Below, piece by piece: positions 1-36,562 of a DNA stretch of 64,000 bases; the stretch's first letter is position 1; each line of letters begins with the position of its first letter. Where the stretch lies: assembly GCA_029261965.1 (NCBI GenBank), contig JAJDAH010000343.1, forward strand, positions 1 to 64,000, given 5' to 3'. The DNA is from Polyangiaceae bacterium. Lineage in GTDB: Bacteria > Myxococcota_A > Polyangia > Polyangiales > Polyangiaceae. The position numbers and the translations under genes are program-made. The notes beneath the pieces are model-generated. The model ran no database searches, was not told the origin of the DNA, and saw only the letters and a list, made by a program, of their open reading frames with translations.

Positions 1-1725
1 GCTGAGTCCCGCGCACCGCGACTCGACCGTACATCTTGCGCACGCCGCGACCTTCACACGAGGCCCTGACGAAGAATCCGTCCGCTTGCTCGCCGCGGTG
101 CGGGTCATCGGCTCGGGGACCAAACAGAGCGGCAACTCGTCGAGAACGTCCTCGAGGTCGAGGCCGACACCGAGGCGCCGCGCCGACGACGACGCGGACA
201 CGATCCTCGGTGCGAGCTCGGCGTAGCGCACGCGAGTGCCGTCGAGAGAAGAGTGTTCCGAGGCGACCGCCAGTCGAAGCTCGATCCGTGCGCTAGGCCA
301 TCGGTTCGAAACGAGCTCGACGAGCGTCGAGAGGTCGGCAACGTTCTGCGTGCATACGACCGTCCTGACGACGACTTCGATGCTGGCTTCGCACAGATGG
401 TCCAGACCACGCACCGTTCTAGCGAAAGTGCCCGGCGCCCGCGTAATGCCATCCGAGATCTCTCTGGAGCTCCCATGCAGCGACACGACCGCGCGCCGCA
501 GTCCCGCCAGTTTCAATTGCTGAGCGTCCTCCAGCGATGCGATGCCAAGAGCGTTGGTTTCGAGCTGGGGACCCCTGCCAGCGCGCGCTAGGCCGATGTA
601 GGTTGCAAGCCCCGGGTGCAGAGTCGGCTCGCCGCCAGAAAAAACGACGGTCGCGCCGGCAGCCGCGGCCTCGTCGATTGCATCGCGAATCGCCTCGTCG
701 CTCGGCGGCGGCAGGAAAGTCGGCACGAAGCAAAAGTGGCAAGCTTGATCACAATGGAAGCTCAACCGAATGACATGGCGCGACTCACCGTCCGTGCGGA
801 CTTCTCGAGTAACTAGACTCCGCGCTGCGCGCTCCGACGTCTGCTCGACGGTGGGCACAGCCGGCAGCGAAGGGGTCGACCTGAGAGGGATGACGTCGTG
901 CGCACGCCGCGTCCTCACGTACTGCTCGGCCAACCCTGGGCAACGCTCCCGCGCGTCGCAAGCGTCGCACAGAGGCAGTCTCACGAAACCCTGTCGGTCG
1001 CCCCCACCCGAGTCGAGCTGATCGCGGCGTGAAGCTCGGCGATAGGACGGAAAGACGCACGGCGGAATCGGCTCGCCGTCATCGAGCCGGACGGGGATTT
1101 GCGCCAGGCGGGCGCGAGCCTCAAGCTCGAGCAGGCAGTCGACGGCTTCGGGGTATGCCACCAGCTCCTGGTGATCGCGGGCGTCGAGCGGCACGTTCGC
1201 GACGATCGCACGGACACCGTGTTCGGTGCCAAAAGTGGAAACCAACTCCTCCGGCAGCGAAGGAAGCAAGGAGATACTCGACCGGACGATCGGCGCCACG
1301 AGCTCCACCGCGACGCCGGCCCGCGCCAAGGCGCGCAAACCTGCGACGGTCCGACGGAACCCGCCAGGATCCCGCGTGCCCAGGTCAACGGCCGAGTGGA
1401 ACCCGGGCAGCTTCACACGCGCGACGTCGAGGCCGACGCGTCGAAGCTCCGTTGCGAACGAATCGTCGATGAGCGTGGCGTTGGTCTCGAGCGCGACACT
1501 CCGACTCCCAGACCGACTGGCCTTCGCCGCTTGCACGAGCTCCGGCAAGTGGTCGACGAGAGTCGGCTCGCCGCCAGTCAGCACCAGGAACTCAGCCTCG
1601 TCCGCCGCGGCTCTGATTCTTTGCTCCGCCGAGTGCGCGAGCTCCTCGTTGTCGTCGCGACACACCGTACAATACACGCAAGCTTGGTTGCAACGCCGGT
1701 TGATCACGATCTTCTGCAGCCGCAT
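1..1725 (-). CDS. Tandem radical SAM protein (3' end beyond window)
   Basis: The reading frame is open from an ATG at 1725 to the window edge (575 codons), so the C-terminus is missing. The first rSAM half has Cys12/16/19 (CX3CX2C, which ligates the SAM-binding 4Fe-4S cluster) and a GGEPTL strand. A CX2CX5C set (CDACDARERC) follows as a presumed auxiliary-cluster site. The second half has Cys325/329/332 and another GGEPTL, then the sequence ELPLC and a second CX2CX5C at the very edge. The same layout recurs in four other proteins of this locus. Such enzymes reductively cleave SAM to a 5'-deoxyadenosyl radical; the substrate is unknown. The start is supported by a promoter-like ACTAGAAT six bases upstream. 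It diverges from the gene at 1779. Confidence 0.85.
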   Translation of the reverse strand, partial: MRLQKIVINRRCNQACVYCTVCRDDNEELAHSAEQRIRAAADEAEFLVLTGGEPTLVDHLPELVQAAKASRSGSRSVALETNATLIDDSFATELRRVGLDVARVKLPGFHSAVDLGTRDPGGFRRTVAGLRALARAGVAVELVAPIVRSSISLLPSLPEELVSTFGTEHGVRAIVANVPLDARDHQELVAYPEAVDCLLELEARARLAQIPVRLDDGEPIPPCVFPSYRRASRRDQLDSGGGDRQGFVRLPLCDACDARERCPGLAEQYVRTRRAHDVIPLRSTPSLPAVPTVEQTSERAARSLVTREVRTDGESRHVIRLSFHCDQACHFCFVPTFLPPPSDEAIRDAIDEAAAAGATVVFSGGEPTLHPGLATYIGLARAGRGPQLETNALGIASLEDAQQLKLAGLRRAVVSLHGSSREISDGITRAPGTFARTVRGLDHLCEASIEVVVRTVVCTQNVADLSTLVELVSNRWPSARIELRLAVASEHSSLDGTRVRYAELAPRIVSASSSARRLGVGLDLEDVLDELPLCLVPEPMTRTAASKRTDSSSGPRVKVAACARCTVESRCAGLS

Positions 1726-1731
1726 CCACGC

Positions 1732-1739
1732 ATTCTAGT
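1732..1739 (-). promoter_or_regulatory. Putative -10 element of the tandem rSAM gene
   Basis: On the minus strand this reads ACTAGAAT and ends six bases before the ATG at 1725. It is the closest match here to a TANNNT -10 box and would give a leaderless transcript. No -35 box is evident. Confidence 0.35.
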
Positions 1740-1778
1740 CCAGTACTCGGGGCCGCGGATCCGTCGTCGAGTCCCGCG

Positions 1779-3089
1779 ATGTCGCGAATCTCGGGGCGGA
1801 CGAGCGACGCTCGGCGGGGCGTGTGCTTCAATGCGGTCGTGGCGGACAGCTCCAGCCCTCCCGGTGGCAACCGAGCGGCCATGACGGTGCACGGCGACGA
1901 GCTCGCCGACAGGCTGAGCCAGCCGCTCCACGCAGGATCGGTGATCACGGTAGACCCGCCCCCGGAATCGTGGGCGACGCTGAAACCCAAGTTGTTCGAC
2001 CGATTGCGTGAGGTCGGCCGGGGGCCGAACCCGCTCGTGCGCTTTCGCGGCTATCCGCTCTGCGGCATCGGAAGTCAGTGGCGAAACCTCGCCGTGGACA
2101 TCGTCGGCGACGAACGGCACCCGAAACAGTGCCAAGCTTGCAGCCTTGCCGCGCGGTGCAGCCCGCCTGCCCAATGGAGTCGGGAGTTGTCTCCCTACGG
2201 GCCAGCGGATCCCGTCGAGCTGTGGAGCCGTTGGTCCGCGCGTCTTGGGCGCGCGACGGGTCGGGCTGGAGAACCGGCGCTGGACGAGATGGTCGGCACC
2301 CTGGTCGATCGCTGCAGCGCGGTCTTGCCCAACAATCCATTCATTCTCGAACCGTCGGTGACGCTCGGCACCGAGCCAAGCGGTGACATTCGCCTGGTGA
2401 CTTTCCACGGACAGTTGCCGAGCGAAGCCGCCGCGGCCGAGGACGCAAGCCGGGGCTTAGTGCGACTCCTTTTGGAATTGCATGGAGTACTCGGTACCGC
2501 CGCCCCCGCGGGCCTGGATGAAGCGCTGACGCGCCCGATGCCATTCGCAATGCCCTTGGGGTTCGAGCACGCGCCCGGCGCCGAGCCAATCCTCAAGGCG
2601 TACGTTCGAGTGCCGGAGCACGCCCCCGAAGAGCGGGCGGCCATCGCCCTGAGCCTGCTTTCGGTGGGAGGGTTCTCCACAGACATCGACGCGATTCAGT
2701 GGGACGCGGTCGAGATGATCGGGATCGGGTCGAGCGGCGGAAAATTGTGCAGCGTCAAGGCTTACTGCCGAGCGCGTCCGAGCAAAGGAGCGTCCGAATG
2801 GGACCTTCCCGCTCTGGCGGAAGACGACCCGCTGGTGACGCTGTGCGGCGACCGCGCACTCGCGGTGATCGATCTCGGCTCGAGCCGCACCCGGCCACAC
2901 AAGTGGGACCTCCCCACGCGAAAGGAGCTCTTGAGCGGACCCGTCGTTTGCGACCGGCTCGCGACCTGGTCACCGCGGACCAACCTCGCCTCGGTCACCG
3001 AGCTTTTCGAGCACCGGGACTTTCGTGCCGACGTCGTGGCCATCGCCCTTCGCGGCGGTCGCATCACGCTTTACTGCGAGATTTCTTGA
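1779..3089 (+). CDS. Unknown protein with a detached rSAM-type auxiliary-cysteine module
   Basis: I cannot assign this 436-residue protein to a family. It has no CX3CX2C rSAM motif and no GGEP. However, residues 92-127 contain YPLC (Cys95) followed by Cys118, Cys121 and Cys127 in the spacing CX2CX5C. That is the pattern found after each rSAM half in the neighbouring enzymes, where PLC or PPC also precedes it. The stretch before Cys95 could be a leftover last alpha/beta unit of an rSAM barrel. The C-terminal 300 residues contain strand-like stretches such as ILKAYVRV, KLCSVKAYC and RITLYCEI, of unknown fold. It may be a partner or substrate-recognition protein carrying an Fe-S cluster. The start is uncertain; GTG at 1839 or ATG at 1881 are alternatives. 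Confidence 0.6.
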   Translation: MSRISGRTSDARRGVCFNAVVADSSSPPGGNRAAMTVHGDELADRLSQPLHAGSVITVDPPPESWATLKPKLFDRLREVGRGPNPLVRFRGYPLCGIGSQWRNLAVDIVGDERHPKQCQACSLAARCSPPAQWSRELSPYGPADPVELWSRWSARLGRATGRAGEPALDEMVGTLVDRCSAVLPNNPFILEPSVTLGTEPSGDIRLVTFHGQLPSEAAAAEDASRGLVRLLLELHGVLGTAAPAGLDEALTRPMPFAMPLGFEHAPGAEPILKAYVRVPEHAPEERAAIALSLLSVGGFSTDIDAIQWDAVEMIGIGSSGGKLCSVKAYCRARPSKGASEWDLPALAEDDPLVTLCGDRALAVIDLGSSRTRPHKWDLPTRKELLSGPVVCDRLATWSPRTNLASVTELFEHRDFRADVVAIALRGGRITLYCEIS

Positions 3090-3435: not shown

Positions 3436-4242
3436 TCAGCCGACTCGGAGAAAACCGTCGACAGGCGGCTCGAGCCAGTTGCTCGCGCGCCACTCGACAC
3501 CGGCGGGCGCGTACTGCGCAATCAACACGCGACGCGGACGGTCCGATTGGTTGACTTCGGACCCATGATAGAGCCGGCCGTCGTACAGGACGGCGCTTCC
3601 CGCTTCGAGCGGCACGGGCTCAGTGCATTTCGGCACTCGGTGATCGTCGAGCTGCTCTTCCTCCCAGTCTCCACCGGCCGGGCGCGCCAGCGTGCGCGTC
3701 GGCAGGCGATGGCTGCCCGGCGCCACGAACAAACAACCGTTCGAAGCGTCCGCGTCGTCCAGCGAGATCATGAGCGACGCCATGCGCTCCGGCTTCGGCT
3801 GCAGGTAGGTCGTATCCTGATGGGCCCCGAACTCGACACTGCCCCCGGGCTGCTTGCAGATGAACACGCTCGTCAAGAGCACGAGCGGCCCTTCGAGCCC
3901 CTGGTGTACCGCATCGAGCACCTTGGGGGACGAGAGCACCTCGCGCACACGCGACTCGACCAGGTGCACCGCGTGACCGACTCGCGCTGCTCGGCTCCAA
4001 CGTTGCTCGGGCGCCACCGCGGCGACCTCACCGAGGGACGGATCCCAAAAAACGGTAGCGCCCGTCGACGATGCCCGGAGCGCGGCGCCAAAGTCGTCCC
4101 CCACGGCGCCGACCGGGGCAGACGCGGCGAGGTCGCGCATCGCCTCGAGAAGAGTCTGCACGGTCGACGCTTCGAGCACTCCGGGCAGGCGGACGAAACC
4201 CTGCTCGGCAAACGTCGTCGACGCCGCCACGTCAGCCGCCAC
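3436..4242 (-). CDS. Phytanoyl-CoA dioxygenase (PhyH) family oxygenase
   Basis: A 268-residue Fe(II)/2-oxoglutarate oxygenase of the PhyH family. The metal-binding facial triad is visible as His141-x-Asp143 (GAHQD) and His226 (YHGSEVNQS), with Arg238 nearby to bind the 2OG carboxylate. GCLFVAPGSH is the typical PhyH strand before the distal His. Such enzymes hydroxylate small molecules or peptide-linked residues using O2. It is last in a minus-strand group after the genes at 5589 and 4232, and its first codons overlap the end of the rSAM gene at 4232, so the two are probably translationally coupled. A second PhyH protein lies at 16416. Confidence 0.85.
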   Translation of the reverse strand: MAADVAASTTFAEQGFVRLPGVLEASTVQTLLEAMRDLAASAPVGAVGDDFGAALRASSTGATVFWDPSLGEVAAVAPEQRWSRAARVGHAVHLVESRVREVLSSPKVLDAVHQGLEGPLVLLTSVFICKQPGGSVEFGAHQDTTYLQPKPERMASLMISLDDADASNGCLFVAPGSHRLPTRTLARPAGGDWEEEQLDDHRVPKCTEPVPLEAGSAVLYDGRLYHGSEVNQSDRPRRVLIAQYAPAGVEWRASNWLEPPVDGFLRVG

Positions 4243-5602
4243 GGTTGGCGGACTCGGGCAGCGAGCGACCGCCCGGGTCGTGAGTCTGCACCCGTTCGAC
4301 CACCGAATCCAAGACAGGGGTCACCAGTTGGCGGGCTTCAGCACTCATGCGTGCGTGCGAAATGTCGAAGCTCGGCGTTCGTGCGTAACAAGGTCGTGAT
4401 TCGTCTCTAGCCGTCAATGCCAAAAGCAGCTTGTAGGGGCCGCTCTCGAGCTGGACCCTCACCGCATCCGGCGCGATCCGCCCGTGGGTGAGCTTCCATC
4501 CGGAAATCTCCGACCCTAGAGCGAGGCCGATTTCCCGAAGCCAAGGCTCGAGACCTTCGGTCTCGCCGATCTCGGCGCTCTGAACGTCGCGCGGGACGAC
4601 CTCTTCCACGTCGGCTTCCGACGGCGTCGGATCGAACCGGCGACCTCCTCGGCTCGGGCGAAGCTCGGCCTGCTCCCACCCGAACTTGTCGACGTAGACG
4701 TGAGACAGCCCCGTGCACCGCGAATCCCCGTCATCGCAGATCCCGGAATAGAGGCAGTCGTACCGCGGGTCACGGTTCCAATAGTGTGAGTCGATCAGCG
4801 CCGTCGGTTGGGTGTTGTTCTGCCGATCTTCGAAGCGGCCGAGCAGGCAACGAGGATAGAACTTCACCACCGTTTCGATCTCGTGAGCTTCCGCCGCTTC
4901 GAGAGCCTCGATGAGGTGCGGGCGAGCCTCGGTGACACGAACCAGCATGCGCTCGGTTCCGTCTCCGGTCACCCGAGGCCAGATGTTCCAAAACTCCATC
5001 GCACGGGGGCCATGGGGCGCCACCAACGCGACGATTTTCGCCAAGTGACGATAGTTCGGCTGCGCGATGACCGTGTTGGTGACCAACGTCGCCGACGTCT
5101 CGGCAATCGCCGCGATCCCTTCGACGATCCTCCCGAACGAGCCCGGCCGGTCGGTGATCTCGTCACAGCTGGACGGATCGTGGCCGTGCAACGAGACGAA
5201 AAATTCGTCGACTCCAGCGTCGAGCAGAGTGCGCAAGTATCGACGGTCGCGCAGTCGCGTAGCGTTGGTTTGAATGCGAACATGCTCGATGCCGCCAAGA
5301 GTTCGGGCATGGGCAACGTACTCGAGCAGGTCTCGCTCCATCGTTGCCTCACCGCCGCTGAAGATGACGCGACGAATGCCCCGCATGGCCTCCGCGTCGG
5401 CGGAGAAGCGCTTGAACGAATCGAGATCGCAACCCTTGTCGACGTCGAGCACGTCTTCGACCATGCAGAAGGTGCACGCGAGATTGCAACGAAAGCCGAA
5501 TGCCACGAGCAGGCTGTCCGAAGCGTTGTAGGCATCCGGATAGAGGTTCGGCCGCAGCTTTCTGAGCTGCTCCGGCGGGCGCCGCAGCTCAGAAGGTTCC
5601 AT
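4232..5602 (-). CDS. Single-domain radical SAM protein
   Basis: With the ATG start at 5602 this is 456 residues; an in-frame GTG at 5611 is an alternative. The rSAM cluster ligands are Cys39, Cys43 and Cys46 (RCNLACTFC), and SGGEAT is the SAM-binding GGE strand. The C-terminal half has RCLLG and then a variant cysteine set (DCLYSGIC...RC) in the place of the auxiliary-cluster cysteines of the tandem proteins. Unlike those, it has only one rSAM barrel. It overlaps the end of the gene at 5589 upstream and the start of the PhyH gene downstream, so all three look like one operon. The reaction is unknown. Confidence 0.85.
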   Translation of the reverse strand: MEPSELRRPPEQLRKLRPNLYPDAYNASDSLLVAFGFRCNLACTFCMVEDVLDVDKGCDLDSFKRFSADAEAMRGIRRVIFSGGEATMERDLLEYVAHARTLGGIEHVRIQTNATRLRDRRYLRTLLDAGVDEFFVSLHGHDPSSCDEITDRPGSFGRIVEGIAAIAETSATLVTNTVIAQPNYRHLAKIVALVAPHGPRAMEFWNIWPRVTGDGTERMLVRVTEARPHLIEALEAAEAHEIETVVKFYPRCLLGRFEDRQNNTQPTALIDSHYWNRDPRYDCLYSGICDDGDSRCTGLSHVYVDKFGWEQAELRPSRGGRRFDPTPSEADVEEVVPRDVQSAEIGETEGLEPWLREIGLALGSEISGWKLTHGRIAPDAVRVQLESGPYKLLLALTARDESRPCYARTPSFDISHARMSAEARQLVTPVLDSVVERVQTHDPGGRSLPESANRGG

Positions 5603-6599
5603 AGAAGCCACTTTTCACCGTCTCGACGTCGTCGTGCACGCGCCGGAAATCGAAGCCCAAGTCCCAGTAGAGGTGGGCGAGCCGAACGAGATTCACGTCG
5701 ACCCAAGCTCGAAGCTCCTCGGGCCAATCGAAGCGCTCGAGGAAGAACTGCAACTGGCTCGTGTCCACTCGTGAAAAGTAAATCGCGTCCGCCTTTCGTT
5801 TGTGCGCGACGCAGATGTGGTGGGAACGAAAGAGCTGCGGAGGGATGAGCTTGGCGAGCTCCTCGTCGCGCGAGGGAGCATGCACGCACTCCTGCACGCG
5901 CTGGAGGATGATCTCGATGTGTTTTTTGGAATCGTGAAAAGTGTAGAAGTTCTCGAGCACGAGCTCGTCGCCTTCGACGGCGTAGCTCGTCCCGGATCCT
6001 TGGAGGTAGATGCGCGCGGCCGTCGGAGACTCGCCGCGCAGTTGGTCCGGGCGAAACTCCACGCTGAACATGTGCCAAGCAACCGGTCGGCCGAGCTCCG
6101 AGCGCAGCTCGACGACGGGCTTCAGCGTCGTGGCGAGCATTTCGATCGAGAGGTTCTCGGCTTGGTGTTGTCGCCGATAGAAGTAGAGCTCGACGCTCAT
6201 GCGTCGCTCGAGGGCGTGCCACTTCACGCCCCACACCGTCCGGTGCGGTCCGAGCCCCGCGCGAACCAGCTCTACGAGCCGGGCCCCCTCCGTCTCGACG
6301 CCGGCGAGCGCGAGGCATTGATAGAGCGCGTTCACCGACCGCAGTTGGCCCGCAGAAGGGCCAAGCGGCTCGTAGGGCAAGAGCGCGTAGTCGTGAAGCG
6401 GCTCGCCGGGCTCGACGAGCTCCTCGGGCAGCGACGACGGCGGCACGAAGGCCTTTTTCGGAGCTTCTCCGCCGTAGACACGAAGCCTCCTCTCGCCGCC
6501 AAGTAGGCGGTCCCGGCGCAGCTCGCGCGCCGACGCGAGCTCGCGCTCGAGCTCGGCCGGCTCGACGGCGCCACCATCCGGTCGCGCTTGCGCTGTCAC
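5589..6599 (-). CDS. Conserved-looking protein of unknown function
   Basis: A 336-residue soluble protein that I cannot assign. It is built of repeated helix-strand units whose strands end in aromatic-rich segments (MSVELYFY, ARIYLQGSG, KADAIYFSRV), suggesting a repeated alpha/beta or barrel fold. No catalytic motif is recognisable. A GTG at 6644 would extend it by 15 residues, but GCTAGGCT lies seven bases before the GTG at 6599, the same arrangement as at other genes here, so I chose 6599. It is first in the operon with the rSAM (4232) and PhyH (3436) genes and diverges from the TPR gene at 6700. Confidence 0.6.
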   Translation of the reverse strand: MTAQARPDGGAVEPAELERELASARELRRDRLLGGERRLRVYGGEAPKKAFVPPSSLPEELVEPGEPLHDYALLPYEPLGPSAGQLRSVNALYQCLALAGVETEGARLVELVRAGLGPHRTVWGVKWHALERRMSVELYFYRRQHQAENLSIEMLATTLKPVVELRSELGRPVAWHMFSVEFRPDQLRGESPTAARIYLQGSGTSYAVEGDELVLENFYTFHDSKKHIEIILQRVQECVHAPSRDEELAKLIPPQLFRSHHICVAHKRKADAIYFSRVDTSQLQFFLERFDWPEELRAWVDVNLVRLAHLYWDLGFDFRRVHDDVETVKSGFYGTF

Positions 6600-6606
6600 C
6601 GAGGTG

Positions 6607-6614: not shown

Positions 6615-6682
6615 GCGGAAGGGCCCACCCCCCAAGCGCGACACAAAAACGCGGCGAACGCGTTCCGGCTCTTGGGTGCCGC

Positions 6683-6690
6683 GCTATCCT
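6683..6690 (+). promoter_or_regulatory. Putative -10 element (GCTATCCT) of the TPR gene
   Basis: GCTATCCT ends nine bases before the ATG at 6700 and faces away from the divergent element at 6607. Confidence 0.35.
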
Positions 6691-6699
6691 GACGCCGTC

Positions 6700-8697
6700 A
6701 TGTCGGACCCGGTAGCGAGCTCGCTCGAAGCGCTCTCCAACGCGCTTCGGCTCGCGAAAGACGGCGACACGTCGGCGGCCTTCGACGAAGTCGGCACCGC
6801 TCTACGGCTGCAACCCGATTCCACGTGGCTGATCATCCGCGCCAGCCAGCTCAAGCTCGTGCTCGGCGACTATGTCGGCGCGGCGAGCCTGCTCGACTAC
6901 CCGGCCGATCGCATCGGCGAGCTTGAGCCGCAACGAGAGCGCTGGAGGTTTCGTCTGCTCGCCAAGCTGTGGTGGCTGGGCGAGGCCAGGTCCGTCTGTC
7001 TGCGTGTGCTCGAACGCCCCAAGAACGCCGCATGGCATGCCGAGCTCGCTGAAATTCTGACGGCTCGGCGCGACTACGAAGGCGCACTCGAGCACGTCGA
7101 ATCGTTGCTGCAAGTCGCGGACACGGCCGCGGTCCGACTCGAAGCCGCCATGCTCGCCGCCTCGGTCGGTCGGGTCGAGAAGGGGTTGGAGCACGTTCTG
7201 CTCGGGCTCCAACGCGAGCCGTCGCCGTCAGCTCGTCTCGAAGCCGCACGGCGCCTCGTCGACTTGGGGGACTTCGAGCAGGCGCGGGCGCAGGCGGAGA
7301 TCCTCGTGGGTCTCTCCGAGCACGAGGGCGAGGCGCTGGCGTTGCAAGGGTCACTCCTGCTCTGGTCGGGGGAATCTGCCGCCGCGAGACGAATCGCCCT
7401 CGCCGGTACGGAGCGTCCCGCCGATTGCGCAGCGCTGCACAGACTGCTCGCCGCAACCGCACTCGTCGAACACGACCTCGATACCGCCGAGAAAGAAGCG
7501 AGCCACGCCATCGAGCTCGACGCTGACGACGCCGAGTCGCACTTCGTCCTGGGCCGCACCCTCCTCGAAAGGGGTGATGCCCGCGGCGCTCTCACGCACA
7601 TCGACCGGGGGCTCATGCTCGAGCAGGGGTTCTCGTTCGGCGGAAGACTCCTTCGGCTGCTCGCCTCCATCCAGGCGGGCGACCAACCGGTACGACTCAG
7701 CGGCTACGTGCTCGGCGAGGTCGCCCACGGACTGCGAGAAATCGACCCATCGGCGCCGGCGCCAGGTCTCGGGGCAACGGCGGCCGAAACGCAAACACGT
7801 CTTCACGACGCACTTTCGCGGCTCGGCGGCAACCTCTCGTCGACGCCGACGTTTCTCGAATCAGGATCGCTGCGGCGACTCTCGACGCGGACCTCGCCAC
7901 GCCACGCGTCGCGCAGGGCTCTCGAGCTCATCCGAGTGCTGCCCCCCGACGAGGTCGTCGCCCGGTTCGACGACGTCATGGCGCAATTTCCCGAATCCCC
8001 ACTCCCAATCTGTCACCGCGGCGAGCTCCACCTCTGGTTGGGTGACTACTCTCGGGCGCACGCCGATTTCGACGCGGCGCTGCGAATCGACGACGAGACA
8101 CGATTCGCGTGGATTGGTCTCGCCGCCGTGGCTTTGCTCGAAGCACGACCGCAGGAAGCACTCGAGATCGCGGCCCGCGGAGTCCGAGCGATGCATGACA
8201 CCGAAGGTCCCGCCCTGTTCGTGTACCGAGGCGCGGCGTATCGCGCCGTCGGCGATTTCGACCGCGCCGAGCTCGACATCGAGCGGGCACTCGAGCTCAA
8301 TCCGACTCGTTTGGCGGCACACCTGGAACGCGCGCTTTTGCACGCCGCTCGAAACCAGAACGAGTTGCTTCTCGATGTCTTCGAACGGATTCGTGTGCGA
8401 GCCCCGGCGATGGTGGCCTGCGCCGCGGCAGAGCTCGGTCTGGACACGAGCGCCGGCGTGACGCCCGAGGCGGCACGTCGCGTCGTCGATCATTGCCTTG
8501 TCATGCTTCGTGGCAATCGTTCTTCGACTTGCGTGACTTTTTTCACGGCGGCGGGGCAGCTACGCGCGGTCGCCCCGTACCCCTCGTCGGCCTCGCGGCT
8601 CTCCGAAGAGAATCCACACATCCTGCGCGACATCGAGCGGCAACTGAACGACGCGTTGGCGCGAGTGGGGAAATCCACGACTCGGCCCGCGGATTAG
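6700..8697 (+). CDS. TPR-repeat protein with C-terminal RGNRSS signature
   Basis: A 665-residue protein made almost wholly of tetratricopeptide-like helical repeats, for example around LWLGDYSRAHADFDAAL and YRAVGDFDRAELDIERALEL, which usually form protein-binding superhelices. The last 60 residues are not TPR. They contain LRGNRSS (603-609) followed by a Thr-Phe pair and a Gly-containing strand. The TPR protein at 28453 ends in a matching segment, and the two are collinear over about 200 C-terminal residues. No signal peptide or membrane segment is seen. The start is the ATG at 6700. The rSAM gene at 8713 follows 15 bases after the stop, so the pair probably works together, the TPR protein as scaffold or possibly as substrate. 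Confidence 0.75.
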   Translation: MSDPVASSLEALSNALRLAKDGDTSAAFDEVGTALRLQPDSTWLIIRASQLKLVLGDYVGAASLLDYPADRIGELEPQRERWRFRLLAKLWWLGEARSVCLRVLERPKNAAWHAELAEILTARRDYEGALEHVESLLQVADTAAVRLEAAMLAASVGRVEKGLEHVLLGLQREPSPSARLEAARRLVDLGDFEQARAQAEILVGLSEHEGEALALQGSLLLWSGESAAARRIALAGTERPADCAALHRLLAATALVEHDLDTAEKEASHAIELDADDAESHFVLGRTLLERGDARGALTHIDRGLMLEQGFSFGGRLLRLLASIQAGDQPVRLSGYVLGEVAHGLREIDPSAPAPGLGATAAETQTRLHDALSRLGGNLSSTPTFLESGSLRRLSTRTSPRHASRRALELIRVLPPDEVVARFDDVMAQFPESPLPICHRGELHLWLGDYSRAHADFDAALRIDDETRFAWIGLAAVALLEARPQEALEIAARGVRAMHDTEGPALFVYRGAAYRAVGDFDRAELDIERALELNPTRLAAHLERALLHAARNQNELLLDVFERIRVRAPAMVACAAAELGLDTSAGVTPEAARRVVDHCLVMLRGNRSSTCVTFFTAAGQLRAVAPYPSSASRLSEENPHILRDIERQLNDALARVGKSTTRPAD

Positions 8698-8698
8698 C

Positions 8699-8706: not shown

Positions 8707-8712
8707 TCTCGA

Positions 8713-11593: not shown

Positions 11594-11600
11594 CGCTCGC

Positions 11601-19217: not shown

Positions 19218-19307
19218 CGGTGGTCGTGAGGCGGCGCGTCTGACCCAACTTACCCGCCCACTCGGGCGTGTGCTACCGTGCTGGCACTCCCACGGACGTG
19301 CACTGAG

Positions 19308-28187: not shown

Positions 28188-28194
28188 GGTCACC

Positions 28195-28202
28195 AGGGTA
28201 GC
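28195..28202 (-). promoter_or_regulatory. Putative -10 element (GCTACCCT) of the B12-rSAM gene
   Basis: On the minus strand GCTACCCT ends seven bases before the ATG at 28187 and supports that start over the longer frame. Confidence 0.35.
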
Positions 28203-28452
28203 ACGTAGTTCGACGTCTGGCGCGGAGGGTATCCGGAGTCGACCTTCGCCAACGGCTAGCTCGCGCGGCTCGTCAACTGCCTGGAAGAAGTTCCAACGAC
28301 TGGTGCAGCAGAGTCCTGCGCCGGCAGGCGAAGCGCCCACGACTATGTCTGCTTTTTCGTTTCTCGGTGTCTAGCCAGCAACTCCGCGAGAACGCTGCTA
28401 GAGTTCGTGCCTCCAAAAGGGAGTACGGGACGCAACCGGCGGTGCGGCGATC

Positions 28453-30768
28453 GTGGCATCTGTTGAGACCATCCGGCTGACTTGTCCGCGTTTGGATCCA
28501 CCAGCGTGGATGCTCGTGTGGCCGACGACGATGATCCCACACGCCATTCGAGCAACGCCAGAGGCGGTTCTCTTCACGTATCAGCGCCCCGACGACACGT
28601 TCGCCGAGGTTGCGGTATCCGCGAACGAACACAACCCCCGATCCCGACTCCGACTCCGAGGAGTCGCGAACGACCTTCCCGACGAGGTTCTGGCGGAGCG
28701 CCTGCATCGTTCGCTCGCGCATCACCTGAGAGCTTCCGAGCCACAGGCGTCTACCTGGGTGGCGAAGGCTACGCGCCTAGCACGAAGTATCGCCGATACT
28801 GAGCTTCCGAGACCCGAGACATTGCGACGCGCCGTGACACGGATCGATGCGGAACCCGAGGGCAAGCATGATGCGCATCGCGACGACGGCGATGAACCGA
28901 TGCCTGCGGATCTCTTGTCGGCCGTTTTCCTCGGCGCGCTTTCTCGAAACGACTTTGCAACCGCGCTGGCCGTCGGCGACGAGTTTCGGTCGCTCGCAGG
29001 GTCTTCTGCCGTCCATCCGCTCGTGCACGCCATCTACGCCGCGATACGAGGTCTTGCTGAGGAAGCCATCGGGCACGCAGAGTCTTTCGCTGCCGCTACG
29101 GTGGTTTCCTCTGACCACCGGTTGGCAGCGTTACTGCTCAGCGCCCTGGACCAACGTTCGGCATCGTGTCGGCACTCGATGATCACGGCAAGCCGCGAGG
29201 GGCGCGTCGAGGACTACATTGCACTGATGGACGCGGCACGATCAGCGCGCGACGCTGAGGCCATGCTCCTGGCCGCCGAGCAACTCTTCTCGTCACCGTG
29301 GCCGAAGCGTCCCCCGGCAAGCGAGATCATCGAGGGCCTCCTCGACCTCGGCCTCTTCACCGAAGCCGAGCGAAGACTTCGCTCGGCTGTGGAATTACCG
29401 ACACCGGACCCGGAGGCAGTTTGCCTCCTCTCGGAACTCTCGTTGTGGAAAGGCGAGGTCTCGGAAGCGCGACAGTTGGCTGTACGCGCCAATCTAGGCA
29501 CCGACGATCAGGGAGCCCGCCTGCACACAATTCTTGGTGTTTGCGCGTGGACCCGAGGGGACGCGGGCGAGGCGCGAGAAGCATGGGAAACTGCGCTCGA
29601 CCTCGACGACCTATTTGGATCCGCGCGGCTATGGCGCGCACAAGCGCTCCTTCGAGAACGAAACTTCAAAGCGGCTTTGCAGGACGCGCAAGCGAAGACG
29701 CTCTCCGCACATCCAATCGGGGACATCCTAGCCGCCCTGGCGAACATGGGCCTGAATAGGGACTGGCAACGCAAGCCCGTGAAACCCTCGCTCTCGGGTC
29801 TGATGGAACTTCCGGATGCAGCGAATTTCGTTCCCGTTCTGCGCGTCCTATTCCCCGGAGGGGAGTGGCAAGAGACGCTCTACGCCGGTGGCGACCCCAC
29901 GGCCGTCCTGACGGATGCCCTTGCGCGATTCGGCTTGAACCGTTCAAGGCTCACAACCGTCACATCATCCACAGGAATCGAGCGGGTACACGTCGTCACG
30001 CCGCGTATCGAAACAGCAACGCTACAGCTCGACTTGGCGGTCGCTCCATTCGAAACGGTGTACGCGGAGCTCGAAAGGCGCCGAACCGAGCTGGGGTGCA
30101 TGTACGCCGACACCTATGGTGCGGAGCTCCTCTTGTGGAAAGGCGAGTACGAACAGGCGTCGACCCGATTCGAATCCGTATGGCAGCGCACCCACACGCG
30201 CTGGGGCTACGTCGGTGCAGGCGCAGCACAATCGCTACTCGGAGACTACGAGCGGGCCCTAGAGTATTGGAGGGAGGGACTCGAGCTGTACGGAGCCTAC
30301 CTCGATACCGAGGCAACCTACGCGTATCGTGGCGACGTGCACTACGCGATGGGGCGCTTGGACCTGGCTGCGGCAGACCTCGAGCAAGCAACTCGAGCCA
30401 CCCCAACGCGGCTGGGTGCGTGGGTCAGCCTGACACTCGTCAAACTGGACCAGGAAAGACCAAAAGACGCGATCGCTGCCTTCTCCGAAGTGCGACGGCT
30501 CCACCCGACGTTGGTGTGGGAAGCGTGCCGAGAAGCGGGCCTCAGCCCGACGCTCGACGTGCCGATGTCCGATCTGCGTGCCGTAGTCGAGAAGGGGCGC
30601 GAGCTACTGCGCGGAAACCGCAGCTCGAAGGTCTATACGTTCTCGACGAGCGACGGCAGATTTCATGCGGTGCGCGCCAACTATGCGCGCAGATGGAGCG
30701 GCCTCGCGAGCCAGGCTCTCGGTCTCTCGCTGGACGTCCTCGCCGGATGTATCGCTCGAAGCAACTGA
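28453..30768 (+). CDS. TPR-repeat protein with C-terminal RGNRSS signature
   Basis: A 771-residue protein starting at GTG. After a non-repeat N-terminal part (about 140 residues) it is built of TPR-like helical pairs. The final 52 residues include LRGNRSS at 719-725 and then KVYTFSTSDGRFHAV, the counterpart of the tail of the TPR protein at 6700. The shared order of repeats (for example LWKGEYEQAS against LWLGDYSRAH) shows common descent over about 200 residues. No signal peptide or membrane span is seen. It stands alone between a divergent B12-rSAM gene and a convergent membrane-protein gene. A GCTAGAGT box at 28397 is about 48 bases upstream. It may be a scaffold or target for the modification enzymes. 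Confidence 0.7.
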   Translation: MASVETIRLTCPRLDPPAWMLVWPTTMIPHAIRATPEAVLFTYQRPDDTFAEVAVSANEHNPRSRLRLRGVANDLPDEVLAERLHRSLAHHLRASEPQASTWVAKATRLARSIADTELPRPETLRRAVTRIDAEPEGKHDAHRDDGDEPMPADLLSAVFLGALSRNDFATALAVGDEFRSLAGSSAVHPLVHAIYAAIRGLAEEAIGHAESFAAATVVSSDHRLAALLLSALDQRSASCRHSMITASREGRVEDYIALMDAARSARDAEAMLLAAEQLFSSPWPKRPPASEIIEGLLDLGLFTEAERRLRSAVELPTPDPEAVCLLSELSLWKGEVSEARQLAVRANLGTDDQGARLHTILGVCAWTRGDAGEAREAWETALDLDDLFGSARLWRAQALLRERNFKAALQDAQAKTLSAHPIGDILAALANMGLNRDWQRKPVKPSLSGLMELPDAANFVPVLRVLFPGGEWQETLYAGGDPTAVLTDALARFGLNRSRLTTVTSSTGIERVHVVTPRIETATLQLDLAVAPFETVYAELERRRTELGCMYADTYGAELLLWKGEYEQASTRFESVWQRTHTRWGYVGAGAAQSLLGDYERALEYWREGLELYGAYLDTEATYAYRGDVHYAMGRLDLAAADLEQATRATPTRLGAWVSLTLVKLDQERPKDAIAAFSEVRRLHPTLVWEACREAGLSPTLDVPMSDLRAVVEKGRELLRGNRSSKVYTFSTSDGRFHAVRANYARRWSGLASQALGLSLDVLAGCIARSN

Positions 30769-30789
30769 CCGTTGGCGGTTGCAGAGGAC

Positions 30790-32580
30790 CTATCTGCACG
30801 CGTCAGCGACGTCGGTAGCCGCCTCGTCAATACAGGCCGGGGCCAAACTTGGCTCGCCCGTCTCGGTAGTCACGAGAACCTGAGGCGGCCACACCGCATC
30901 GCTCGCCCCCGAGCGGCTGTCGGCCACGAGTCGGAGCGTACCCGCGCTCGCGGGCGCGAGGCGGGCTGCCGTCTTTGCCGGAGCCGCGCCCGCGGCAGAG
31001 GTCGGCCTGCAGAGATGCCAGCGAACGTCCGCTTCCGAGTCGCTCAGGACGAACAGCCGCCGCGCATCGCCCACGGGAACGGAAAACGGAACCTCGAACC
31101 AGATCTCGTCGAACGGGCCGTCGGAGAGAAACTCGCGACCACCGGGGACCGCCGGATGGCCGCGATGGGCGTACCACGCGTCGCTCGAGACCCGTCTCGA
31201 CGTACTGAGGCAGCGCAACGGCTCCCCGGCTCGGACCGCGCACAGCCTGATGTTGCTCCAATCGAGGATTGCCCCACTCTCCCGCAAGCTCAGCTCGCCA
31301 GACGACGTGCGCGACACGAACAATGAAGTGCCGGACCGGTCGTTCCCAAGCTCCTTGGGGAGGAATATCCCCACCGCGGATACAAAGGAGCGCCCGCTCG
31401 GTGCCGTCAGTCGCTGCGAGAGTGCGCCGTAGCCCCATCCGCGTTCAGCAGCGAGCCGAGCGAAGGCAGCCACCTCGCCGTATCGCCACGGCGGAGCGGG
31501 ACAGCTCAGGCCGAAGCTAGCGATCCGCGAGATCCCTGTGGCCGCAGTGGCCACGCCGGCCACGACAATCGCGCTCACCGAGACGACGCCCCGCAGCCGG
31601 AGGAATGCTCCCTCGGGGACGCGCGCGAGCACCACGGCCATCGTGATGGCCCAGAGGGGTACCGCGGGCGCCACGTATCGGGGAGCGACTCCGTGCCCGG
31701 TGATGAGCGACGCGCCGAACAGTTCTGCGGCGACGAGCAGTGAAGCCAGCAACAAGGCGACACGGACTCGCTCATCGGGCTCGAGCTCCGTAATGCGTTT
31801 CCTCGCCAACGCGGCAACCACGGCGACCCCGGCAGCGGCACCAACGATCCCCCACAGGTGACCTGTGGTTAGAGCCAGAGCCGCATTGCGCGACCACGTC
31901 GCATGCGAGGCCGGAAACGTCGCCAACACGGCGCCGGCGAACGCGGCTGCGACGTGTATTGCCTTCGTTCGCGCACCGAGCACCCCGACGGCGACGACGA
32001 CGGGAAGGAGCGCCACGGAGGACAGGTGAAAGTCGAGGGCCAAGCCGAAGCTCACGCCCATCAGCGTCCACCAACGGAGGCCACCGTCTCGCACTACCTG
32101 AGTGGCCGCGAGCACTAGCATCGACGCCGGCAGCGGAAGCGCCGACACGTTCCAGACCATCGGCACCTGCGAAGAAATCGCCGTGGCAGCGACGAACGGA
32201 ACGCCGAGCGCCAGCGACGGCGGCTGTCCGGTGATCCGACGCACGGTGTGGACGAACAACGCGGCAGCTCCAGCGTGGAGTGCGACGACGATGCCGTTCG
32301 CGATCGCGGCGGCGTTGTCGCTCGCGAGCAGAAGCGCCAACCCGCGCTGAAACAGCGTACCGAGAAAATAGCCGTTGAAACTCGCCTGCGGTCCGAGCGA
32401 GCACTCCGCCACTTCGCGGCAGTCTCGGGCGATGAGCAGAAACTTCGTCAGGTCCAGATGGACGGGGACCCGGACACCGCACGCCAGTAAGAGCACGAGT
32501 GCGACGACCGCAAGCCGAAGCTCGACAGAAACTCGCGATATCAGCGATCGAGTCATCGGTCGGGCGAGTTCTTTTGGCAC
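30790..32580 (-). CDS. Polytopic membrane protein, GT-C-like (paralogue of 32775)
   Basis: A 596-residue protein with a first hydrophobic helix, a loop containing DCREVAEC, about ten further membrane helices up to residue 370, and a soluble C-terminal region of about 210 residues that probably lies outside the cytoplasm. The layout resembles GT-C glycosyltransferases (ArnT/PMT-like), whose catalytic Asp lies in the first outer loop; the DC-x4-EC motif is shared with the paralogue at 32775. It would transfer a lipid-linked sugar, but that is an inference from topology. The start is GTG at 32580; ATG at 32556 is an alternative. It is divergent from its paralogue. Confidence 0.65.
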   Translation of the reverse strand: MPKELARPMTRSLISRVSVELRLAVVALVLLLACGVRVPVHLDLTKFLLIARDCREVAECSLGPQASFNGYFLGTLFQRGLALLLASDNAAAIANGIVVALHAGAAALFVHTVRRITGQPPSLALGVPFVAATAISSQVPMVWNVSALPLPASMLVLAATQVVRDGGLRWWTLMGVSFGLALDFHLSSVALLPVVVAVGVLGARTKAIHVAAAFAGAVLATFPASHATWSRNAALALTTGHLWGIVGAAAGVAVVAALARKRITELEPDERVRVALLLASLLVAAELFGASLITGHGVAPRYVAPAVPLWAITMAVVLARVPEGAFLRLRGVVSVSAIVVAGVATAATGISRIASFGLSCPAPPWRYGEVAAFARLAAERGWGYGALSQRLTAPSGRSFVSAVGIFLPKELGNDRSGTSLFVSRTSSGELSLRESGAILDWSNIRLCAVRAGEPLRCLSTSRRVSSDAWYAHRGHPAVPGGREFLSDGPFDEIWFEVPFSVPVGDARRLFVLSDSEADVRWHLCRPTSAAGAAPAKTAARLAPASAGTLRLVADSRSGASDAVWPPQVLVTTETGEPSLAPACIDEAATDVADACR

Positions 32581-32774: not shown

Positions 32775-34619
32775 ATGTCACCGATGCTCGGCAGAGTGCA
32801 TTCGTATCGCTACGCAATCTGCGCCCTCGCCGCGTTCGCTTTTCTTTTCGCTTTGGGTCGCGAGCCGCCGATGCACCCAGCGACCTCTCGCGACGTCTTG
32901 CTCGTTCAGGACTGCCTAGCAGGACTGGAGTGCCCGACGCACGGACCGATCACTTCATTGCGAGGAATGTTTCATGGCGCGCTTTGGCCGAGATGGGTCG
33001 GCCTGTGCTTGCGTCTGGGGCTGGAGCTTCAGACTCAGCATCTGCTCTCACTCGCGCTGCACGCCGCTGCCGTCGTCGTCGTGTTCCGCGTAGCCGAGCA
33101 AGAATTGCCACCAGCACGGTCGTGGCTCGCGGCAAGTTTCGTTCTCCTCATGATGATCCCCGCCGTCGAGCATCCGGTCTACTGGAACGTGAGCTTGCTG
33201 CCGTTGCCACAGGTCGCGTTGGTGGCGGCGCTGCTGCAGCTGGTTCGCAGCGGGCAAGCCCGGTGGGCTCTGGGCGCGGGCTTGGCCGCAGCAATCTGTG
33301 ACGAGCTGCACGTGTCGTATGTCGCGCTGTTACCGTCCGTTCTTGCCATCGCGCTGCTCGGAGCAAAGCGCCCCTGGCTGGCCGTCCTCCTCATCGCAGG
33401 CGTGCATGGCGCGCTGAGCTGGATGCTCTCGGCGCACGCCTGGCGCGTGAACATTTCGGCGGTCCATGCCCGGGGCATTCTAGTGCCGGGAGTGATCGGT
33501 GCGCTCATCCTCGTCCCGGCGAGTCTCTACCTACGCGCCGGATGGGATCGCATCGCCCTCGTTCAGCGAAAGCTCCTGACACTGCTCGTGCTCGCGGTCC
33601 CCGTCGCTCTGGTGAACGTCGTCGGCTACGCGCTCGTCTACCAGAGCTTTGCACCACGCTACTGGGCACCTGCGTTCGTCCCCCTCGCGCTCCTCGCGAG
33701 TTGGGCGGCCGCTCGCTTCACTGCTCGACCCGCGCTTCGTTGGCTGCCCGTGCTGCCCGTTTGCTTCGGAGCGCTCCACGCCATCGCCGGGTCTGTCGCG
33801 TGGTTGCGCTCGCCGATTCTGCCCAGGCCGAGCTTGTCCGACGTCGCGAGTCTGGCTGGCGCGCTCTCCGATCACTCCCACCTGGACCTCGTCCGGCGAC
33901 TGCGCGGCCCCGTCAGCGAACGCCTGATTCTAGGTCTTGCGCCGTTTAGCCATCGGCCACTCGCTCCAAGCTTGCAGGCATCACGTGATGTCCGCGTGCT
34001 GCTCGCCGCCGGACCAGCACGACCTCCGCCCCCAGGGTGGACGAGCATCGACCTGAGCGACCGCAGGGTGGCGCTGGTTGGAATGATCGACCCATGGCTC
34101 GACCTCGGGCGGGCGCGCGTCTGCGCCGGGCCCGACCCCGAGTGCATTCAACTCAGTCCGGCGGACTGGGAGGCCGCACTCGGAGATCGCCGTCGCCACC
34201 GTGACCTTGCCTACCCGGCGTTGCCAGGGGTCCGCGAGCTGGTTCAGCGGGTGGCTCGGCGCCACGGTCGGATCTCCGTCCGGTGGGAGGTTCCGATCAC
34301 CCCCACCGAGGGGACGCGAGAACGCTTTGTCGAGGTCACGGAAATCTTGCAGACGCCTTGGCGAGTGGAACGCGTGGACGACATCGACGCTTTCCCGGCG
34401 CCGCCCGCCAGAAGGGTGCAACTGCGCGCCAGAGCTGGTCAGGCGGGTCGCATCGTGCTCGAGGTCAGTGACCAAGACAGCGAAAGCGTGAAACGGGGGC
34501 TCCCTCCTGCTTTCATCGAGACCTCGCCAGACGAGCTTGGCATCCGTTCGCTACTCGACGAACGGCCATGGCCCATCCAACTCGCCTGTCGGCGAGGCTG
34601 GATTTCCGACTGCAATTAG
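32775..34619 (+). CDS. Polytopic membrane protein, GT-C-like (paralogue of 30790)
   Basis: A 614-residue protein with the same plan as its divergent neighbour: one hydrophobic helix (YAICALAAFAFLFAL), an outer loop with DCLAGLEC, many membrane helices to about residue 360, and a soluble C-terminal domain. Shared segments in that domain include RVCAGPDPEC here against RLCAVRAGEP there, and a YPALPG/HPAVPG motif. A GT-C-type sugar transferase function is inferred from topology only. The ATG at 32775 was chosen for its purine-rich GGATAGAGAGAGA leader; a frame from 32712 also exists. The close tandem rSAM gene at 34718 follows about 100 bases later. Confidence 0.65.
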   Translation: MSPMLGRVHSYRYAICALAAFAFLFALGREPPMHPATSRDVLLVQDCLAGLECPTHGPITSLRGMFHGALWPRWVGLCLRLGLELQTQHLLSLALHAAAVVVVFRVAEQELPPARSWLAASFVLLMMIPAVEHPVYWNVSLLPLPQVALVAALLQLVRSGQARWALGAGLAAAICDELHVSYVALLPSVLAIALLGAKRPWLAVLLIAGVHGALSWMLSAHAWRVNISAVHARGILVPGVIGALILVPASLYLRAGWDRIALVQRKLLTLLVLAVPVALVNVVGYALVYQSFAPRYWAPAFVPLALLASWAAARFTARPALRWLPVLPVCFGALHAIAGSVAWLRSPILPRPSLSDVASLAGALSDHSHLDLVRRLRGPVSERLILGLAPFSHRPLAPSLQASRDVRVLLAAGPARPPPPGWTSIDLSDRRVALVGMIDPWLDLGRARVCAGPDPECIQLSPADWEAALGDRRRHRDLAYPALPGVRELVQRVARRHGRISVRWEVPITPTEGTRERFVEVTEILQTPWRVERVDDIDAFPAPPARRVQLRARAGQAGRIVLEVSDQDSESVKRGLPPAFIETSPDELGIRSLLDERPWPIQLACRRGWISDCN

Positions 34620-34696
34620 GAGGAGGTCCCAGGGGCGGGCTCTCTGCGTACCGACACAGCGCCTGGGGCACACGGTGGCTCGCCGGCTCAGGAGCG

Positions 34697-34704
34697 GCTA
34701 GCCT
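34697..34704 (+). promoter_or_regulatory. Putative -10 element (GCTAGCCT) of the tandem rSAM gene
   Basis: GCTAGCCT ends thirteen bases before the ATG at 34718. Confidence 0.35.
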
Positions 34705-34717
34705 GTCCTCGACTTGC

Positions 34718-36562
34718 ATGCGTGTCGCTCGCGTCCTCACCAATCAGACCTGCAACCAGAATTGCAATTTTTGTGGTGCGCGTCGCGAAGTCGAAGATCC
34801 CGAATTCGCGGCCACGCGCGCAGTTGCAGATCGCATGGTCGAAGCACTCGAGTCGGGCGCGACCGAATTGGTGCTCTCTGGTGGTGAGCCGACGCTGCGG
34901 CAGGATCTTTCCGGGCTTGTCGCGTACGCTCGTCGACGAGGCGCCAAGCGCGTGGTTCTCGAGACCAACGCAGCTCAGATCGATACCAGTCTGGCTCGCG
35001 TTCTAGCACGTGAGGGGCTCGACGTAGCGAGGGTCAAGCTGCCAGCCTGGGGCGAGCAATGCGACGTCATCACCGAAGACCCGGGCGGCTGCGAGAACAC
35101 CATAGCGGCCATCCGGACCTTGTTGCACTACGGCGTCGAGGTCCACGTGTTGGTACCCATCGTCCGTGGCAACACGAAAAGAGTAGGGGAGCTTCCCGAG
35201 CGACTCGTCGCCGCTGGCTTCTCGAGCACGCAAATCCTGGTCCGCTGGTTCGTCGAGTCTCCCGACGAGCACGCACTCGCGCCGCTATCAGAAGCAACAA
35301 CGGCCATCGAGGCCCTGGCCGACGCTGGCCGCAAGGTCGGGCTGCCAGTCCGGCTCGACGGCGACTCTTTCGTGCCACCGTGCGCGTTTCCGAACGCCAT
35401 TCGTCTGGCACAGCTGTACACGCTCACTCCCGGCGGAGCGAACCGCGCGGGGTACGAGCGCATCGAACAATGCAACGAGTGTCGCGTGCGCGACCGTTGT
35501 CCCGGCGTGCCCAAGGCACTTCTCGATTCGAACCCGGACTACGCTTACCGCCCGGTGAAGGAAGAACGCGTCCGCCGCCGGCTGAGCATCATCGAGTCGG
35601 TGGAATCGCAGATCACGCGCGAGCTGGTCACTACGGAAACCTGCCGTCGGTCCGATGGCAGTGCGGTACCCATGCACACGGTTCGAGTGAACTTTCACTG
35701 CAACCAGTCATGCCATTTCTGCTTTGTTTCCACCCATCTTCCGCCCGCTCGAGAGCAAGACATCCGCAGTGCCATCGAGGCGGCGGGTCGACAACGGGCG
35801 ATCCTTGCACTGAGTGGCGGTGAACCGACACTCAACGCCAACCTCTCCGAGTACGTGCGACTCGCCAAGAGCGCCGGAGTGAGAGAAGTGGAGCTGCAGA
35901 CGAACGCCACGCGTCTAGCCGATTCGAAGCTCGTAGCAGAGCTAGAGGCCGCCGGCGTGGACGTCGCGTTCGTCTCGCTCCACGGGGCCACTGCGCCAGT
36001 CTCCGACGACCTCACTGGCGCCCCCGGGACCTACGAGCAAACGGTGCTCGGTCTGGACGAGCTTCAGCGCAGTAGCATCCGGCTGCGCCTCAACTTCGTG
36101 TTCTGCCAAAAGAACTACACAGAGTTTCCAGCCCTCATCCGCATGGTGGCCGAGCGCTGGCCGAAAGCCCTCCAGAGCGTCTCCTTCGTCGCACCCTCGA
36201 CGGACCTCGTGCCTCGGGATGCTTGGCTGATACCGCGCTACGCTGACGTCATGCCGCTAATCCAGGAGGGCGCTGCGCTTGCGGACCAACTCGGAGTCGA
36301 GCTCACTGGCTTCGAGTCGATGTGCGGGTTGCCCCTCTGCCTGATCCCTGGATCGCTCGCGCCCTACTTCGACCTCGTCGAAGTCGCCGAGGGCGCGGAC
36401 GGGGGCGAGTTCATCAAGCCCGATGCGTGCCGACGCTGCAAGCTCGAGCCGAATTGTTGGGGGATTCGCACGCGGTACGCCGAGCTCTACGGTACGGACG
36501 AGCTCCGACCGGTAACGGACGAGCCGGACACTAGAGCGCTGGGGCATCAAGAGAGGACTTGA
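34718..36562 (+). CDS. Tandem radical SAM protein (paralogue of 14589)
   Basis: A 614-residue tandem enzyme with Cys12/16/19 and GGEP 55-58 in half one, auxiliary cysteines 222, 252, 255 and 261, Cys328/332/335 in half two, and a final CRRCKLEPNC. All spacings up to residue 335 equal those of the protein at 14589, and the final YAELYGTDELRPV is nearly identical there. It therefore probably catalyses the same kind of reaction on a related substrate. An in-frame extension to 34568 lacks homology, so the ATG at 34718 was chosen. It is the last gene of the rSAM locus before the tRNA. Confidence 0.9.
   Translation: MRVARVLTNQTCNQNCNFCGARREVEDPEFAATRAVADRMVEALESGATELVLSGGEPTLRQDLSGLVAYARRRGAKRVVLETNAAQIDTSLARVLAREGLDVARVKLPAWGEQCDVITEDPGGCENTIAAIRTLLHYGVEVHVLVPIVRGNTKRVGELPERLVAAGFSSTQILVRWFVESPDEHALAPLSEATTAIEALADAGRKVGLPVRLDGDSFVPPCAFPNAIRLAQLYTLTPGGANRAGYERIEQCNECRVRDRCPGVPKALLDSNPDYAYRPVKEERVRRRLSIIESVESQITRELVTTETCRRSDGSAVPMHTVRVNFHCNQSCHFCFVSTHLPPAREQDIRSAIEAAGRQRAILALSGGEPTLNANLSEYVRLAKSAGVREVELQTNATRLADSKLVAELEAAGVDVAFVSLHGATAPVSDDLTGAPGTYEQTVLGLDELQRSSIRLRLNFVFCQKNYTEFPALIRMVAERWPKALQSVSFVAPSTDLVPRDAWLIPRYADVMPLIQEGAALADQLGVELTGFESMCGLPLCLIPGSLAPYFDLVEVAEGADGGEFIKPDACRRCKLEPNCWGIRTRYAELYGTDELRPVTDEPDTRALGHQERT

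Follow-up and report, generated by a model that had tools for sequence, protein, structure and literature searches.

The DNA analysed here, referred to throughout as the window, is a stretch of 64,000 nucleotides from a bacterium of the Polyangiaceae (Myxococcota), and forms the start, from base 1, of a contig of 77,883 bases (C272) in a genome of 9.59 Mb and 480 contigs. Its positions 1-36562 hold an island of radical S-adenosylmethionine (rSAM) genes and tailoring enzymes that, on the balance of the evidence, appears to be a dispersed, trans-encoded tailoring arm of a His-Xaa-Ser (HXS) pathway in this myxobacterium, acting on a ribosomally synthesised and post-translationally modified peptide (RiPP) of the HxsA4 type. 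That the island is functionally coupled to the HXS system is well supported; we infer the substrate and the chemistry. The signature families of the island, namely U2 (5589-6599, reverse strand), a protein of the ABBA prenyltransferase fold, with its rSAM partner rSAM_4232 (4232-5602, reverse strand), and the two-domain rSAM proteins, are confined almost entirely to genomes that bear HXS genes.

Distribution of the island genes and of the HXS system

The co-occurrence of the two sets of genes was studied in a sample of 379 Myxococcota genomes. U2 is found in 33 of these, spread over several classes and families, and every one of the 33 has an HxsB match over the cut-off, against 125 of the 379 overall. 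HxsB is an imperfect marker, as it stands alone in some genomes, including that of the window; for this reason HxsD and HxsA4 were checked as well, and matches to both are likewise present in all 33 U2 genomes. The two-domain rSAM family occurs in 43 of the 379 genomes, of which 42 are HxsB-positive, the exception being a genome that is 58% complete and carries HxsA4. Fisher tests, which take the genomes as independent when they are not, give p values of 5e-18 for the association of U2 with HxsB and 8e-22 for that of the two-domain rSAM proteins; within the window's own family, with genomes again taken as independent, the corresponding values are 5e-4 and 4e-5.

Physical linkage can be seen in several genomes. 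In G178 (L055), U2, rSAM_4232, PhyH, HxsD, an HxsD-like gene, HxsB, HxsA4 and HxsC4 form one same-strand run of eight genes, the ends of which overlap or lie no more than approximately 45 bases apart. This run starts with the U2-rSAM_4232-PhyH order of the window, where the third gene of the U2 operon is PhyH1 (3436-4242, reverse strand; PF05721, E 1.3e-33), an iron- and 2-oxoglutarate-dependent (Fe/2OG) dioxygenase, and the HxsA4 that it encodes has the C-terminus CSHGSHG...GSW. A WelO5-family gene, U2, rSAM_4232, a Rieske gene and HxsD-HxsB-HxsA4 are found within about 9 kb in G251 (L101), while the distance from U2 to HXS genes is 8 kb in G341. Two-domain rSAM genes lie near HXS genes at L136 and L137. 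One more rSAM family, c3, links the two sets: in G357 its gene immediately precedes HxsD, and in the genome of the window a member is found 7 kb from HxsA4.

The HxsA4 precursors consist of almost perfect (Gly-Ser-His)n arrays, variable in length, with an invariant terminal Trp (SW or QW). Such arrays are encoded at L055, L084-L094, L101-L113, L136 and L138, in U2-positive and U2-negative genomes alike; at L138 (G364:C26), two tandem HxsA4 genes adjoin HxsD genes and one for an rSAM protein of about 600 residues. The window's genome encodes HxsA4 at C455:12056-12298 (97.9 bits, cut-off 55; C-terminal sequence ...LPSFSRSARGMLSKSEDAVIEKARDNCDEVPAPGDADGTFPAQHCSHG(SHG)nSW). HxsB (TIGR03978) is at C110:9222-10622 (557 bits, cut-off 370), without other HXS genes on that contig and with no HxsB in the window, and HxsD (TIGR03976) is at C420:37689-37949 (55.7 bits, cut-off 50), where it and an HxsD-like gene stand beside an rSAM gene and a methyltransferase gene.

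Several of these observations weigh against the attribution of the island to an HXS pathway. The island is unlinked to HXS genes in the window's genome, in which HxsA4, HxsB and HxsD are on three other contigs, and most U2 genomes have U2 and the HXS core on separate contigs. No rSAM protein of the window reaches the HxsB or HxsC cut-off (the best scores 145 of 500), and hence the island does not count as a core HXS locus. Genomes that lack U2 conserve the C-terminal Trp of HxsA4 just as well, so that this residue by itself is no evidence for the ABBA proteins. The co-occurrence of U2 with HXS can, moreover, stem from shared ancestry or genome size. As regards the scattering of genes, a similar arrangement of HXS is seen in G052, and in part in G116, both members of the window's family, so that a trans-encoded arm fits the HXS organisation of that family.

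The island genes are associated with one another as well as with HXS. Among the 27 U2 neighbourhoods examined, rSAM_4232, an rSAM protein with one auxiliary-cluster motif and a clade support of 100/100, is near U2 in 26, and varying sets of PhyH-type, Rieske, WelO5, B12-binding rSAM (11 of the 27) and two-domain rSAM genes recur; family c3 is present in eight, and a profile search with rSAM_4232 found ten loci. Of the 23 WelO5-family proteins of U2 genomes, 17 are encoded within 18 kb of U2, and each of the ten U2 genomes that have such proteins has at least one so placed. This repeated clustering indicates that the island genes belong together. An earlier note on the window had suggested a biosynthetic or protein-modification system, and had named a lack of co-occurrence in other genomes as what would refute it; since the parts recur together in many genomes, a real and co-inherited biosynthetic or peptide- or protein-modification system is supported. 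The view that it has no relation to any described system is not supported, as its genes follow the HXS system in their distribution and share operons with it in some genomes, and the best NCBIfam model for seven of the eight rSAM proteins (twitch-type) is HxsC4, at 55-145 bits, far below its cut-off of 500.

The same recurrence bears on the idea that several unrelated operons have been assembled here with no common product. The mixed strands of the island would agree with this, as would the several genes between 25 and 36 kb (a glycosyltransferase and membrane proteins) that are not found around U2 elsewhere. It is nevertheless improbable, given that U2, rSAM_4232, PhyH, Rieske, WelO5, amidohydrolase, B12-binding rSAM and two-domain rSAM genes regroup around U2 in the genomes of other families.

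Prenyltransferase-fold and WelO5-type proteins

Two kinds of protein were overlooked in the first reading of the window. One comprises U1 (1881-3089, forward strand) and U2, both of which are predicted to be ABBA-fold proteins, U2 solidly and U1 on a weak model. The AlphaFold model of U2, with 23 relatives included, has a predicted local distance difference test score (pLDDT) of 88.6; its best PDB match in Foldseek is the indole prenyltransferase AmbP1 (E 2.6e-6), and the best 50 rows from a second aligner (VIA) are all ABBA prenyltransferases (top Z 12.7, 4.0 A, 244 residues). The U1 model has a low pLDDT of 57. Among the matches listed for it by the second aligner, ABBA enzymes lead (CymD, Z 14.7, 4.0 A, 256 residues), and it has LExS...KxY...KxY positions in common with proteins that flank U2 in other genomes. 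The fold is seen by structure comparison only: no sensible match came from searches of PDB sequences, whether made with U2 itself or with profiles of U1 and U2, and neither protein has a match in Pfam (E up to 5) or NCBIfam (E up to 1). Neither a shared fold nor a shared motif demonstrates an activity, and both proteins are putative catalysts of prenyl transfer.

Residues ~57-100 of U1 contain a PxC...CxxCxxxxxC motif that resembles the auxiliary-cluster tail of the adjacent rSAM proteins and precedes the ABBA-type domain, in a protein without an rSAM domain. Many U2 clusters include a second protein with an ABBA-like KxY pattern that is unrelated in sequence (families c4, c8 and c12; L051, L065, L063, L067, L058, L043-L044 and L031-L036), the suggestion being of a conserved two-protein arrangement. 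By profile-profile comparison, U2 is unrelated at the sequence level to c4, c8, c12 and U1, and c4 is weakly similar to c12 and U1. In three genomes (L057, L059-L060 and L120) the U2-rSAM_4232 pair is tandemly duplicated, and the rSAM protein of one copy is without CX3CX2C, as if it were an inactive partner.

The other kind is represented by WelO5a (20591-21409, forward strand; PF22814, 256.5 bits against a cut-off of 27, E 4e-76), which, judged from its sequence, is a WelO5 homologue that keeps the HxG halogenase motif. In an alignment to WelO5 structures, the HCG that replaces HxD/E in this Fe/2OG enzyme aligns with the HVG of WelO5. Its paralogue WelO5b (23507-24346, forward strand; 171 bits, E 5e-50) has HFD at the same site, and so belongs to the hydroxylase type rather than having HxG. 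HCGNE is found in one protein of G158 and two of G357. WelO5a is a candidate for chlorination.

Hapalindole-type clusters combine, in kind, an indole prenyltransferase, a WelO5 halogenase and Rieske enzymes. The island, with ABBA folds nearest to the indole prenyltransferases AmbP1 and CymD, a WelO5-type halogenase and a Rieske oxygenase alpha subunit (19308-20594, forward strand; PF00355 and PF00848), is hapalindole-like in this sense. Its product might then be a free small-molecule alkaloid, prenylated, oxidised and halogenated, and built from an amino acid (tryptophan, for instance); rSAM_4232 would form the scaffold, and HXS would be a separate pathway of the same bacteria. This main rival reading is possible, if rather unlikely. 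In the distant genome G158, homologues of the window's Rieske enzyme (570 bits), amidohydrolase (378), WelO5a (245) and PhyH2 (206) are together with U2, without adjoining HXS genes. Sandaracinus amylolyticus and S. defensii are both producers of indiacen A and B, which are prenyl indoles (PMC9306752), and indiacen B bears a chlorinated isoprene (PMC4660955); both producers probably carry U2. However, the genome that is probably that of S. amylolyticus has no WelO5-family protein, though the species makes the chlorinated indiacen B. Furthermore, a free small molecule would not explain why G178 has U2 in an eight-gene operon with HxsA4, why the genes are linked in G251 or why all 33 U2 genomes are nested among those with HXS.

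Radical SAM, TPR and remaining proteins of the island

The gene content of the island was established by gene calling and hmmscan, which re-found the two PhyH, two Fe/2OG, one Rieske, amidohydrolase, short-chain dehydrogenase/reductase (SDR) and methyltransferase genes of the earlier note. Its eight rSAM genes with twelve intact CX3CX2C motifs were counted again with the same result, from Pfam matches (PF04055) and motif counting (2+1+1+2+2+1+1+2 in gene order). Its report of no precursor peptide holds for the window, where a search of the gaps between genes for precursor peptides found no precursor-like open reading frames, but not for the genome, in which the HXS precursor is on another contig. 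Of 63 rSAM matches genome-wide, 14 are on contig C272, which argues that the density of rSAM genes is not due to chance. Further rSAM-dense stretches are present on contigs C420, C268, C221 and C475, the first of which encodes an rSAM protein of 1090 residues with two motifs.

Five of the eight rSAM proteins have two rSAM domains. These are tSAM1 (1-1725, reverse strand; PF04055 twice, 38% identity to tSAM2), the gene for which is truncated by the end of contig C272; a fusion to a GFO/IDH/MocA dehydrogenase domain (~11640-14567, forward strand; PF04055 twice with PF01408); tSAM2 (14589-16406, reverse strand), of the family found in 43 genomes; tSAM3 (21436-23361, forward strand); and tSAM4 (34718-36562, forward strand; 70% identical to tSAM2). 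By Pfam and motif count, tSAM3 has lost CX3CX2C in its first domain; the other four keep it in both, as do nearly all two-domain relatives examined. In a tree with an unresolved backbone, the N-halves from different genomes group in one supported clade and the C-halves in another, implying that the fusion is old and that both halves have been kept. An origin of the two-domain proteins as duplicated HxsC4 finds no support, the clades of the halves lying apart from HxsC4 in this tree. Nothing relevant on tandem or two-domain rSAM proteins was found in the freely readable literature. Relatives of the GFO/IDH/MocA fusion adjoin two-domain rSAM genes at L054, L064, L141, L146 and L147, and at L054 and L064 they are near U2. 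Besides rSAM_4232, the remaining rSAM proteins are a single-domain enzyme (8713-10308, forward strand; PF04055, E 1.7e-19) and a B12-binding enzyme of the methyltransferase type (26523-28340, reverse strand; PF02310 and PF04055), for which the best NCBIfam model, KedN5, is below its cut-off.

The two tetratricopeptide repeat (TPR) proteins, TPR1 (6676-8697, forward strand; Pfam TPR) and TPR2 (28510-30768, forward strand), do share the tail that had been ascribed to them: a common GN(R)SS...F...G.LR module is found twice in each, once internally and once at the C-terminus. A GNRSS-TPR homologue is immediately upstream of HxsD-HxsB in G169 (L091), in G116, G150 and G188 one lies no more than about 14 kb away from HXS genes, and none was found in four genomes of the same family that lack HXS. 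Given this placing of relatives beside the HXS core elsewhere, the TPR proteins are more likely to be scaffold or recognition parts than the substrate of modification. Two-module proteins of this kind are also encoded at L091 and L065.

Further genes of the island are PhyH2 (16416-17255, reverse strand; PF05721), conserved in G158 and G294; an amidohydrolase (17252-18358, reverse strand), for which the closest NCBIfam model is Xaa-Pro dipeptidase, below its cut-off; an SDR oxidoreductase (18411-19421, reverse strand; PF00106, E 6e-27); a SAM methyltransferase (24350-25189, forward strand; PF08241); and U3 (10334-11593, reverse strand), of a family without a match, relatives of which stand next to tandem rSAM genes in two genomes besides this one. 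A GT1 glycosyltransferase (25250-26335), a membrane protein with a weak PMT_2 match (30790-32496) and the GFO/IDH/MocA domain fused to one rSAM protein could be taken to indicate a surface-glycan or glycolipid modification locus, in which sugars would be the substrates of the rSAM, PhyH, SDR, glycosyltransferase and membrane proteins, and TPR proteins would help. This is very improbable: the glycosyl genes are not among the families common to other U2 neighbourhoods, the core that is conserved consists of an ABBA protein and an rSAM enzyme, and no sugar-nucleotide pathway is seen. A second membrane protein (32784-34619) has no credible family match. Past a tRNA-Leu at position 36611 the genes seem unremarkable, among them those for LysM, FGE-sulfatase and ion-channel proteins.

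Proposed pathway and comparison with known systems

In the proposed HXS tailoring pathway, HxsB/HxsC-type and two-domain rSAM enzymes would modify successive GSH repeats of HxsA4. The ABBA pair would prenylate an aromatic or imidazole side chain, either the invariant C-terminal Trp or His residues; the PhyH, Rieske and WelO5 enzymes would hydroxylate or chlorinate the peptide, with addition of chlorine being probable; and the B12-binding rSAM enzyme would C-methylate it. Trimming or release of the product may fall to the amidohydrolase, for which a dipeptidase model is the nearest, and the TPR proteins may serve as scaffold or recognition parts. Were the enzymes to act on the peptide, a single pathway would bring prenylation and aliphatic halogenation together with the peptide chemistry of rSAM enzymes. 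There is a slight chance that HxsA4 acts as a ribosomal carrier, the C-terminal Trp on its (Gly-Ser-His)n handle being prenylated, oxidised and chlorinated and then cleaved off by the amidohydrolase; if so, a peptide tail would carry small molecules of the prenyl-indole type while they are assembled.

The definition of HXS peptides is an in-silico one (Haft and Basu, as cited in PMC9062424). No chemical product of the system was found in the freely readable literature searched, and the only paper found there that discusses HXS maturation cites none. As HXS is present in one third of the Myxococcota sampled, the link to ABBA, WelO5-type halogenase, B12-binding rSAM and two-domain rSAM proteins is of use in providing concrete mass shifts and a single operon to examine, the latter in what is probably the complete genome of a culturable Sandaracinus.

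Of the known systems with which the island can be compared, the indiacens of Sandaracinus resemble the chemistry proposed here in combining prenyl and chlorine groups, and have producers that probably carry U2; they differ in that the probable S. amylolyticus genome is without WelO5, and the passages on indiacens do not name the genes for them. The ABBA prenyltransferases (AmbP1, CymD, FgaPT2 and the cyanobactin enzymes PagF and LimF) are similar to U2 and, on its weak model, to U1 in fold and Lys/Tyr pattern, whereas U2 has approximately 10% sequence identity to them, is missed by Pfam and NCBIfam, and has an rSAM protein as a constant partner. WelO5, a carrier-independent halogenase, is like WelO5a in family, in the HxG motif and in the company of ABBA and Rieske proteins; by contrast, the window's enzyme is from Myxococcota and is accompanied by rSAM proteins and by a paralogue of the hydroxylase type. 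The HXS system itself (HxsA4/HxsB/HxsC4/HxsD; TIGR03976-03979, NF038313 and NF038332) is present in every U2 genome sampled, and is tied to the island by the G178 operon, the short run in G251, HxsC4 as the best-scoring model for the window's rSAM proteins, and the HxsA4, HxsB and HxsD of its own genome. The island differs from it in being without HxsA, HxsB and HxsD, in having rSAM proteins far below the HxsC cut-offs, and in adding ABBA, WelO5, Rieske, PhyH and B12-binding rSAM enzymes.

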